DNA from: Stutzerimonas stutzeri KOS6
Lineage (GTDB): Bacteria > Pseudomonadota > Gammaproteobacteria > Pseudomonadales > Pseudomonadaceae
NCBI RefSeq assembly: GCF_000307775.2
Contig: NZ_KK020677.1
Coordinates: 583,095-647,094 of the forward strand
Direction: 5' to 3'
DNA: 64,000 nucleotides
A program made the position numbers and the translations under genes. Below the pieces are notes generated by a model. It had not been told where the DNA came from and ran no database searches. It worked only from the letters and a program-made list of their open reading frames with translations. Each line of letters begins with the position of its first letter. The first letter of the stretch is position 1. Of the stretch, positions 61,829-64,000 are shown piece after piece.

Positions 61829-63682
61829 CTACACGACCCCGACCCGCAGCGGGGTCCATTCGCTTTCCTTCACCGCTGTGCTCACGGCCATGACGAGCTT
61901 GTCGAGATTGCTGGCAGTCACGCCCTCCAGTGCCGAGCGCCCCCGCAGCATCGAGCGCGGCTGCAGCAGTGCATGGTAGATCTGCCAAGGGTCCGCACCC
62001 CTGGTCAGCTTCAGGACAGACTGGATCAGCTCGTGCTTGAGCGGGTCGAGGTGCCAGTCCGGCACGCGCTGGCCGCGGTTGCCCACGTTCAAAGCCAGCA
62101 AGTTGCCCGCCTGGATCTCATAGCTGATCCACCTGCGGGATTTGCCCGCTATCTTGGCAAACGCAGCGACGGGAAGGTTGTGCGGCGCTTCGAAGACATC
62201 GAACAAATCCATTCTCTCGCGCTGAATGTCCGAAGGTACCAGCGGCGCGGCCGATCGCTGGGGCGGCACTGCCGGCAGCCGATGTGCGGCGGCAGAAACC
62301 AACGGCATGGCGTCACCCGGCTTCGTCACGAGCAGGCTTGGCGAAGCGGCAACCGGCGTAGAGGGCGCGCTTGCGGTTTGCTCAGTGGGGAATGCGGGCA
62401 CGCCTTCCAGATGCACGGTGAGCGGCATGCTGGCCGCCTCGACCTGGTTCTGCTCGAAGAGGTCGAGGCGATCGGCCCAGTCCTGCATCATGCGTCGACG
62501 CTGCTCCACGTACTCGGCATGGTTGTAGGTGGCGCTGACCTTGTTGGGATCGACATGCGAAAGCTGTGCATCCACCCAGACTTTCGGGTAGCCGATCTCG
62601 TTGAGCGCAGTGGACATCGTGCCACGGATACCGTGTCCGGTCAGGCGTTCCTGATAGCCCATGCGTTTGAGCGCACCATTGAGCGTGTTCTCGCTGATGC
62701 GCTTCTTCAGGTCGCTGTCGTGCCGGAACAGGTAGCGCTGGGCCGGCTTGAACTCATCGAGCAGGTGCCGGACGATCTCCATGGCCTGAATCGACAGCGG
62801 CACGATGTAGGGCGGGATGTCCTTCGGCTGCTGCCGCTTCTTGCGCATATCCACCTGGAGTTGCTTCACGACGTCGGGCGGGATGATCCACAGCCCTCGG
62901 TCCAGATCGAATTGATCCGGCATCGCCTGCCGCAGCTCGCCGGTTCGCACGCCGGTCAGCAGCAATAGCCGCAGCCCGAGCTGGGTCTGCCGCCTGCCGC
63001 GATAGCTGCGCAGCCGCTGCAACAGCCTTGGCAGCTCGGCCATGCGCAGGAACGGGTTGTGGTTGACGGGTGGCAGCGGCAGCGCCACCACATCGAGATC
63101 GAAGGCGGGGTTCTGCTCTAGGCCCGGCACGATCACCAGCGCGTAGCGGAACAGTTGGTTGAACCACGTCCTGACTTTCTCGGCGACGGAGAGCGCCCTG
63201 CGCTTCTCGATCCTGGCGATCACCTCCAGGAGGTCGGGCCGCTTGATCTCATAGATCGACTGCTTGCCCAAGGTCGGCAGCACATCCTTGTCGAAGATGC
63301 GCGGAAGGATCGAGAGAGTCGTCTGCCGGCCTTCCTTGAGGCTGAGCCCGCGATGCTTGAGCCACTTGCGATACACCGCCTCGAAGGTGTTTTCGTCGGC
63401 GAGCCGGACAGCGGTGCGCTTCTGCTTGCGGTGATCGCGAGGATTGGTGCCTTTGGCCAGCAGGGCGCGCGCTTCATCGCGCAGGCTGCGGGCCTCGCGA
63501 AGCGTCACCTCCGGGTAGGTGCCGAGCGACATCCGCTTCTGCTTGCCCGCCCAGTAGTAGCGGAAGTGCCAAGTCCTGCCACCGGCAGCGGTGACGGCCA
63601 GGGAGAGGCCATCCAGGTCAGGGAGGGTGTATGCCTTGCCAGTCGCCTTGGCCTGTCGAACGGCCAGGTCTGAGAGTGCCAT
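61829..63682 (-). CDS. int: IntB13-type tyrosine integrase of the ICE
   Basis: A 617-residue P4-family integrase. The N-terminal DUF4102 domain (LSDLAVRQAKATGKAYTLPD) is followed by the SAM-like core and the catalytic domain: Arg in LLTGVRTGELRQA, the HGIR box LTGHGIRGTMSTALN, and LSHVDPNKVSATYNHAEY with the nucleophilic Tyr. About 200 residues follow this core, beginning EQNQVEAASMPL; they include a linker and a domain DVFEAPHNLPVAAFAKIAGK with SYEIQAGNLLALNVGNRGQR and DPWQIYHALLQ, unusual for integrases outside this group. The start at 63682 (MALSDLAVRQ) fits the family. The gene points away from the tRNA-Gly gene beside it, the ICEclc layout. Confidence 0.93.
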   Translation of the reverse strand: MALSDLAVRQAKATGKAYTLPDLDGLSLAVTAAGGRTWHFRYYWAGKQKRMSLGTYPEVTLREARSLRDEARALLAKGTNPRDHRKQKRTAVRLADENTFEAVYRKWLKHRGLSLKEGRQTTLSILPRIFDKDVLPTLGKQSIYEIKRPDLLEVIARIEKRRALSVAEKVRTWFNQLFRYALVIVPGLEQNPAFDLDVVALPLPPVNHNPFLRMAELPRLLQRLRSYRGRRQTQLGLRLLLLTGVRTGELRQAMPDQFDLDRGLWIIPPDVVKQLQVDMRKKRQQPKDIPPYIVPLSIQAMEIVRHLLDEFKPAQRYLFRHDSDLKKRISENTLNGALKRMGYQERLTGHGIRGTMSTALNEIGYPKVWVDAQLSHVDPNKVSATYNHAEYVEQRRRMMQDWADRLDLFEQNQVEAASMPLTVHLEGVPAFPTEQTASAPSTPVAASPSLLVTKPGDAMPLVSAAAHRLPAVPPQRSAAPLVPSDIQRERMDLFDVFEAPHNLPVAAFAKIAGKSRRWISYEIQAGNLLALNVGNRGQRVPDWHLDPLKHELIQSVLKLTRGADPWQIYHALLQPRSMLRGRSALEGVTASNLDKLVMAVSTAVKESEWTPLRVGVV

Positions 63683-63776
63683 GCTCTTGCTCCGAACATG
63701 AGTCAGGAACCAGATGCTGGTCACGTCGACCTCGCCTCTCCATCAACAATCCGGAATCAGCCGCGCCCGCAAAAAT

Positions 63777-63905
63777 GGACTTGTTTGTGGACTTAAAAGT
63801 CCCGGCTGTAGGCGGATCGCAGTGGACCACAGCAGAACGTCAAAGAGAGGAAAAGTCCTTGTGAGGCAACGACTTGCAGACTCTCTTGGACTTCTGCGGA
63901 AGTCC
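63777..63905. promoter_or_regulatory. Array of six GGACTT half-sites between integrase and attachment site
   Basis: GGACTT or its complement AAGTCC occurs at 63777, 63789, 63797, 63853, 63888 and 63900. Two adjoining sites form GGACTT-AA-AAGTCC (63789-63802), and the last two lie in overlapping dyads GGACTTC/GAAGTCC (63888-63905) and CTGCGGA/TCCGCAG (63894-63909). The density in 130 bases is well above chance. Arm-type integrase or recombination-directionality-factor sites, or operators of the int promoter, are likely. The protein bound is unknown. Confidence 0.6.
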
Positions 63906-63919
63906 GCAGAATGATGCAG

Positions 63920-63937
63920 TGGAGCGGGCGAAGGGAA
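63920..63937 (-). other. Predicted ICE attachment site (att) in the 3' end of tRNA-Gly
   Basis: ICEclc-family integrases insert at the last 18 bases of tRNA-Gly genes; here the 3' end with the encoded CCA covers 63920-63937, and the integrase gene lies directly inside. This would be one end (attL or attR) of the element, reconstituting an intact tRNA. A second copy should flank the other end, outside this window. The exact crossover cannot be fixed from one end. Confidence 0.6.
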
Positions 63938-63993
63938 TCGAACCCTCGTCATGAGCTTGGGAAGCTCAGGTAATGCCATTATACGACGCCCGC
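63920..63993 (-). tRNA. tRNA-Gly (anticodon CCC)
   Basis: On the minus strand the 74-base gene starts GCGGGCG and ends CGCCCGC-T-CCA (acceptor stem of 7 pairs, discriminator T, encoded CCA). The anticodon stem-loop is TGAGC-TTCCCAA-GCTCA, giving anticodon CCC; the T arm contains GGTTCGATTCC. It reads GGG glycine codons. It lies at the right window edge, with its 3' end facing the integrase gene, as expected for an ICE in tRNA-Gly. Confidence 0.95.
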
Positions 63994-64000
63994 TAAGGGG

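Follow-up and report, generated by a model that had tools for sequence, protein, structure and literature searches.

Integrase sites of described elements and the ICEclc family

Elements of the ICEclc family are described as carrying a P4-type integrase beside tRNA-Gly, with 18-bp repeats at both ends (PMC10732049). Where ICEclc is treated in PMC4111918, a 450-bp attP and presumed IHF sites are reported and arm sites are not given; integrase arm sites are themselves a known kind of thing, but we found no description of them for this family in the open literature searched, a search that the original IntB13 paper falls outside. ICEclc is reported to carry an outward-facing constitutive promoter, Pcirc (PMC9286271, PMC6561031), which drives int in the excised circle (PMC13023037). 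The named element closest to the one described here is ICEnahCSV86 of Pseudomonas bharatica CSV86, which occupies a tRNA-Gly(CCC) site with the 18-bp repeat TTCCCTTCGCCCGCTCCA and has a published length of 105 kb (PMC9298801); we found no mention of arm sites in the accessible text of that report.

Better-described arm sites come from more distant systems. ICEMlSymR7A has repeated attP arm sites for its integrase IntS, and a model has been presented in which the attP-bound integrase shuts off its own gene; it differs from the element studied here in its motif (TGKTGGTATC), in having five sites and in its dedicated recombination directionality factor (RDF), RdfS (PMC11963761). Integrase sites overlap the int promoter at intS/attL of prophage KplE1, giving self-repression (PMC2951348), and autorepression of phage P4 int is likewise reported, as cited in PMC7286903. 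In KplE1 and P4 the overlap lies on the int side, whereas the overlapped promoter-like site of our element is at its far left end and is joined to int only when a circle forms.

The integrative element of Stutzerimonas stutzeri KOS6

The stretch of DNA analysed here (the window) is 64,000 nucleotides long and ends in the integrase-proximal end of a 122-kb integrative element (122.4 kb from core to core), whose host site is a tRNA-Gly(CCC) gene. The features that define this end are:

61829-63682, minus strand: int, 617 aa, with Arm-DNA-bind_3 (residues 3-88), central and catalytic domains
63920-63937, minus strand: att core, 18 bp, repeated without change at the element's left end (G000:C3:524632-524649)
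63920-63993, minus strand: tRNA-Gly(CCC), the integration site

The att core is the 18-bp 3' end of the tRNA gene, and recurs exactly 122.4 kb away (G000:C3:524632). As expected of a heterobivalent tyrosine integrase, the int product begins with an N-terminal arm-binding domain (PF13356, Arm-DNA-bind_3; E 3.2e-24), and the distance from core to int is nearly constant, at 243-253 bp, among the loci in which a core was found. A P4-type integrase beside tRNA-Gly and an 18-bp repeat at each end are thus both present, and on its sequence the element is assigned to the ICEclc family with ICEnahCSV86 as its closest named relative. The integrase of that host (L009) is 100% identical to the int product over residues 1-617, and the same half-site pairs lie upstream of its int and at its left end (L116); the elements are unlike in length, at 105 kb as published (PMC9298801) and 122 kb in KOS6.

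A second element, of the ICEclc type, is present in the same genome (G000:C1:129112-231968; L275, L161), with ~102.8 kb between its cores; the published ICEclc att sequence GTCTCGTTTCCCGCTCCA is found at its right end, and with one mismatch at its left. We also note that the conjugative plasmid pKF715A of P. putida KF715 (NZ_AP015030.1, 20442-22578) contains an integrase region 99.1% identical to this one, and that the match starts at the att core and excludes the rest of the tRNA gene.

Half-sites between int and the tRNA gene

The initial annotation drew attention to six GGACTT half-sites within about 130 bases, one palindromic pair among them, and two overlapping dyads beside the tRNA gene. 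The sequence bears out these elements: GGACTT occurs on the plus strand at 63777, 63789 and 63888 and on the minus strand at 63797, 63853 and 63900 (all within 63777-63905), the palindrome is GGACTTAAAAGTCC at 63789-63802, and both dyads are present and overlap. The tRNA gene occupies 63920-63993, so that 10 bases intervene between it and the dyads.

The clustering as such says little. There are 25 copies of GGACTT in the 64-kb window against a shuffle mean of 21, and the expectation for this hexamer alone in 133 bp is ~0.04 copies. However, when all hexamers and positions are considered, 7 of 60 simulated 64-kb windows reach at least six copies of some hexamer in 133 bp, and we therefore regard the cluster by itself as mildly surprising, and set it aside as stand-alone evidence; what the array means rests on comparison with related elements.

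For this purpose the upstream regions of 80 integrase loci, including that of the window (71 distinct), were aligned, and conservation was scored as the mean over 11 representatives of diverged subgroups. The forward sites, and the reverse copy within the palindrome, are as follows:

63776-63783, plus strand: R1, predicted arm-type half-site TGGACTT, first of a direct pair spaced 12 bp (TGGAC 10.6/11; GGACTT 9.7)
63788-63795, plus strand: R2, predicted arm-type half-site TGGACTT, second of the pair (TGGAC 10.8/11; GGACTT 10.0)
63823-63828, plus strand: R3, possible arm-like site TGGACC (9.6/11; function inferred only)
63887-63893, plus strand: R4, probable core-proximal arm-like site TGGACTT (TGGAC 10.4/11; GGACTT 10.0)
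63797-63802, minus strand: reverse GGACTT, the right half of the palindrome (mean 9.7/11; altered in several diverged relatives)

R3 was not among the six copies listed originally, nor was a further related conserved stretch, CGACTT at 63870-63875. For the reverse (AAGTCC) copies the values are 9.7, 8.7 and 9.3 of 11, where the regional mean is 8.8. Scored as full hexamers the forward sites range from 9.7 to 10.0, so that R1 has no advantage over the reverse copy at 63797 (9.7); the forward pair is distinguished by its TGGAC block, by its spacing of 12 bp and by the concerted change of its two copies.

The annotation took a lack of conserved half-sites in elements with near-identical integrases as grounds for refuting its reading, and the comparison does not refute it: the pattern [TA]GG[AG]C-N7-TGG[AG]C is present in 79 of the 79 relatives with enough upstream sequence (two loci, L013 and L054, are too short there to be counted). 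A de novo scan upstream of the integrases recovers matches of at least 7/8 at a spacing of 12 in 36 of 45 clusters, compared with a mean of 2.9 and a maximum of 5 in ten shuffles. Base 6 of the half-site is identical between the two right copies in all 80 loci that have the pair, counting that of the window (62 T, 17 A, 1 C), and the ICEclc-type element of this genome, whose integrase is about 60-63% identical, has TGGCCT in both right copies upstream of int. The layout of this second element is the same, with 12-bp pairs at both ends, but its half-sites are of the type GGCCT where the studied element has GGACT, and its right pair is 132/120 bp from the core in place of 144/132. As for R4, it lies 33-34 bp from the core in the right ends that carry TGGAC at that place.

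Taken as arm sites for the integrase, the array therefore divides: the assignment is strongly supported for R1 (63776) and R2 (63788), probable for R4 (63887) and possible for R3 (63823), and does not extend to the reverse copies. The 'six half-sites' thus become two to four predicted integrase sites, plus reverse copies with another function or none.

A separate set of YGGA repeats about 10 bp apart occupies approximately 63811-63840 and includes R3; these could be excisionase (RDF) sites or extra integrase sites. Repeats at a spacing of 10 occur in 22 of the 45 clusters (shuffle mean 2.3), and many, though not all, of them fall in this interval.

A matching pair at the left end

The left end of the element contains TGGACTC-GATTG-TGGACTC, 78 bp from the core and with the same spacing (12 bp) and orientation as the right pair. 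Of the 19 occurrences of TGGAC-N7-TGGAC in the 4.95-Mb genome, just two fall within the element, one at each end; both are plus-strand pairs, at distances of 78 bp (left) and 144 bp (right) from the core of that end. Expressed relative to the core, the copies are at -144/-132 (right) and +78/+90 (left), and sites are therefore found on both of its sides.

Searching 50 genomes with the left end gives matches in 31, in which conservation of the repeats is not independent evidence because the query contains them. Twenty left ends were located through the att core and nothing else, each on one contig with its right end. Of these, 18 show a 12-bp direct match of 5/8 or better at +77 to +79, the exceptions being L286 (4/8) and L328 (3/8). 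Among 34 distinct left ends, a hand-picked set that takes in those of the 50-genome search, most of them recovered because they resemble the left end of the element itself, arm pair included, 24 have G2 and C5 in both copies at +78, with 2 at the next best offset; the remaining ten have degenerate or one-base-shifted versions. The left end of the ICEclc-type element of the same genome carries AGGCCT/TAGCCT at the same positions, +78/+90, and several elements have matching types at right and left, such as TGGACTA (L179/L331) and GGCCT (L193/L330).

Two further arrangements occur among these loci. G018:C5 (148730 and 257281; L153, L124) carries a natural mosaic on one contig, with a T-type right arm and an A-type left arm. 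At G584:C1:1354850 (L310) there is an apparent tandem of two ICEs sharing one common att core, with a TGGACTT pair on one side of it and TAGACC/TGTACC on the other.

Residue 48 of the integrase and base 6 of the half-sites

The concerted change at base 6 can be compared with the integrases themselves. Starting from 195 loci, 146 were distinct and long enough and were thinned to 74 taxa, ten of which lack a credible pair; omitting the frame-ambiguous L201 leaves a table of 63. When 399 integrase residues were scanned blind over these 63 taxa, residue 48 scored by far the highest against base 6, at 0.84, with the runner-up at 0.44; keeping L201 as it stood leaves residue 48 in front (0.78 and 0.42). 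It is also first in the subsets of at least 45, 55 and 59% identity, and for either copy alone; the same scan applied to the spacer bases finds no such leading residue.

Gln at residue 48 accompanies T in 44 of 45 taxa, Arg accompanies C in four of four and Glu C in six of six, while Pro, Ser, Gly and Ala are mostly found with A or are mixed. Not every row conforms: Pro, Ala and Gly have mixed bases in some distant rows, and L228 (Q48) has C in one copy. Gln48 changes at least eight times on a tree of the catalytic part. The starred branches of the catalytic-domain tree provide five independent pairs, with a mean of 4.8 concordant and none opposite (p 0.0625, which is the lowest value that a sign test on five pairs can return). 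Site sequence in this way tracks the arm-binding domain, with base 6 of the right pair following residue 48 and five starred pairs as independent comparisons, and does so more loosely at the left ends. There, both copies fit in 12 of the 20 core-located ends, one copy fits in six, one end is ambiguous (L328) and one is contrary (L307, an Arg48 element with T and T); most of the 12 are the common type, because T is common, and the six one-copy fits are four Pro48 elements (A and T), G018 (Gln48, A and T) and L332.

A second candidate association, of residue 49 with base 3, has strong counts but is confounded by descent, with ~3 of 6 independent pairs agreeing and the rest showing no difference, and for this reason we do not claim it.

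An AlphaFold model of integrase residues 1-95, used here only for the order of strands around residue 48, has strands at 37-44 and 47-55 and places residue 48 at the start of a strand, just past the turn (mean pLDDT 68, moderate). Szwagierczak in 2009 is said to have described a four-stranded DNA-binding sheet in the HPI/HAI7 arm domains. From the alignments, residue 48 of the arm-binding domain seems to read base 6 of each docking site, and this residue-base association is the part of the results that exceeds what was expected. We offer, as a tentative proposal with rather less than even odds, that something near a one-residue code sets arm-site specificity, with T (paired to A on the opposite strand) read by Gln, C by Arg or Glu and mostly A by small residues, and that, with the far-end pair wrapping a promoter for int that exists only in the circle, the same code sets autorepression.

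These observations bear on the identity of the protein that uses the repeats. The annotation had allowed that they serve an RDF, and an AlpA- or Xis-like excisionase binding the direct repeats so as to set the direction of recombination would accord with the description of RDF sites as direct repeats spaced by one turn of the helix (PMC7498355), as would the separate ~10-bp phasing of the YGGA repeats. But it is a residue of the integrase itself that covaries with base 6 of the 12-bp pair, which points to the integrase over a separate excisionase, and the pairs are present at both ends; moreover, the integrase/excisionase module of the family is described in a 2026 paper as a single recombinase (PMC13393423), and the table in the review PMC4111918 gives no RDF for ICEclc. 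We consider it very improbable that the pair is an RDF site.

Dyads, hairpins and the int leader

Three inverted repeats lie within or close to the array:

63888-63905: dyad B, GGACTTC-TGCG-GAAGTCC (four-base loop)
63894-63909: dyad A, CTGCGGA-AG-TCCGCAG, containing the reverse GGACTT at 63900
63853-63875, minus strand: weak terminator-like hairpin facing int, AAGTCGTTG / CAAGGACTT followed by TTTT, containing the reverse GGACTT at 63853

A quite different account of the region is that it functions mainly as an RNA or DNA structural switch, in which transcription reading through from the tRNA promoter is attenuated by stem-loops in the int leader, or in which the two dyads form in alternation. 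There is a precedent in ICEclc, where stem-loops in the int leader are proposed to lower tRNA-int transcripts (PMC13023037), and the ICEclc-type relative in this genome has a clear, strong hairpin with a U-tract between tRNA and int. The leader of the window folds better than its shuffles (z -3.7), but a consensus RNA fold was rejected, its covariation support being almost nil (-0.68 kcal/mol). The mutually exclusive dyads of the initial annotation are not conserved as a pair. Dyad B shows no covariation, its centre pair being lost in 12 of 19 distinct rows without compensating change. Dyad A is 87.2% paired over alignment cells and has two pairs with double changes. One of 500 shuffles attains its covariation score, and on three measures it outdoes almost every shuffle, although two of its base pairs are broken, one in 5 and the other in 7 of the 19 rows. 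A switch between alternating hairpins is thus unsupported, and dyad A alone retains some covariation.

Pairing in the 63853-63875 hairpin holds in 86.5% of cells, barely above the 85.1% of shuffles, and a consensus scan of 63600-64000 found no intrinsic terminator (a G+C-rich stem plus U run) between tRNA and int. The hairpin may nevertheless shield int from transcription that starts at the tRNA promoter, which would agree with PMC13023037, and a structural role for the 63853 copy may coexist with arm sites elsewhere in the array. As the principal explanation of the region a structural switch is unlikely, and it leaves both the left-end pair and the association with residue 48 unexplained.

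Two other observations concern the leader. An Rfam scan returns the tRNA alone above cut-off; a CPEB3 ribozyme-like match (63811-63898, plus strand) scores 20.1 bits against a cut-off of 35 bits and is probably due to chance. A hairpin over the Shine-Dalgarno region of int (63690-63709, minus strand; TTCCTGA...TCAGGAG) is paired in 99.2% of cells and near-invariant in the 19 distinct rows, with one A missing in the window and a few near relatives.

Promoters and possible autorepression

A promoter scan near int found none, so that Pint is unlocated. At the left end there is one promoter-like site facing the core, TTGACC-18-CACAAT, the -10 of which lies at +86..+91, between the two half-sites. 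The same pattern is present in 25 of the 34 distinct left ends; the nine that lack it all come from the diverged sets. Because the left pair straddles the -10 of this Pcirc-like outward promoter, the integrase would be in a position to repress int following excision, and the arrangement, with its analogues in other elements, suggests autorepression in the circle. The annotation had also put forward a switch of the int promoter before and after excision: this is plausible by way of the left-end pair and the promoter-like site that it overlaps, but not by way of the hairpins.

Might some other regulator use the array? A host or element protein such as BisDC could bind it and activate int in transfer-competent cells, and a common 27-bp motif is indeed reported in ICEclc transfer-competence promoters (PMC9286271). 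That a pair of the same kind is present at the left end, and that a residue of the integrase covaries with the pair, makes a regulator of this type the least probable of the explanations considered.

We favour the reading that the region is the integrase-side arm of the attP of an ICEclc-family element, with half-site pairs at both ends that would serve both the intasome and autorepression in the circle, and on the sequence comparisons we give it a probability of about 0.88. From the site pairs computed at both ends, with their kept 12-bp spacing, concerted change and covariation of base 6 with residue 48, we infer binding, a role in the intasome and autorepression, as follows. The N-terminal arm-binding domain would bind TGGAC(T) half-sites, those of the integrase-side arm being the 12-bp pair (63776, 63788) and probably the core-proximal site at 63887, and those of the left arm the matching pair at +78/+90 from the core. 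On excision the pairs would come to flank the core, where integrase could assemble the intasome. As the left pair brackets the -10 of the Pcirc-like outward promoter, integrase bound to attP in the circle would then repress int.

Implications for the ICEclc family

The ICEclc family is widespread, and the arm sites predicted here are the docking array that the integrase of the KOS6 element apparently uses at insertion and excision. Knowing them defines attP, makes it possible to test which elements can cross-mobilise, and provides a simple hypothesis for the silencing of int in the excised circle. The association with residue 48 makes arm specificity directly testable. If the proposed code is true, it would allow the arm sites of elements not yet seen to be predicted from the sequence of the protein, and it could explain the absence of cross-excision between neighbouring ICEs of one genome.
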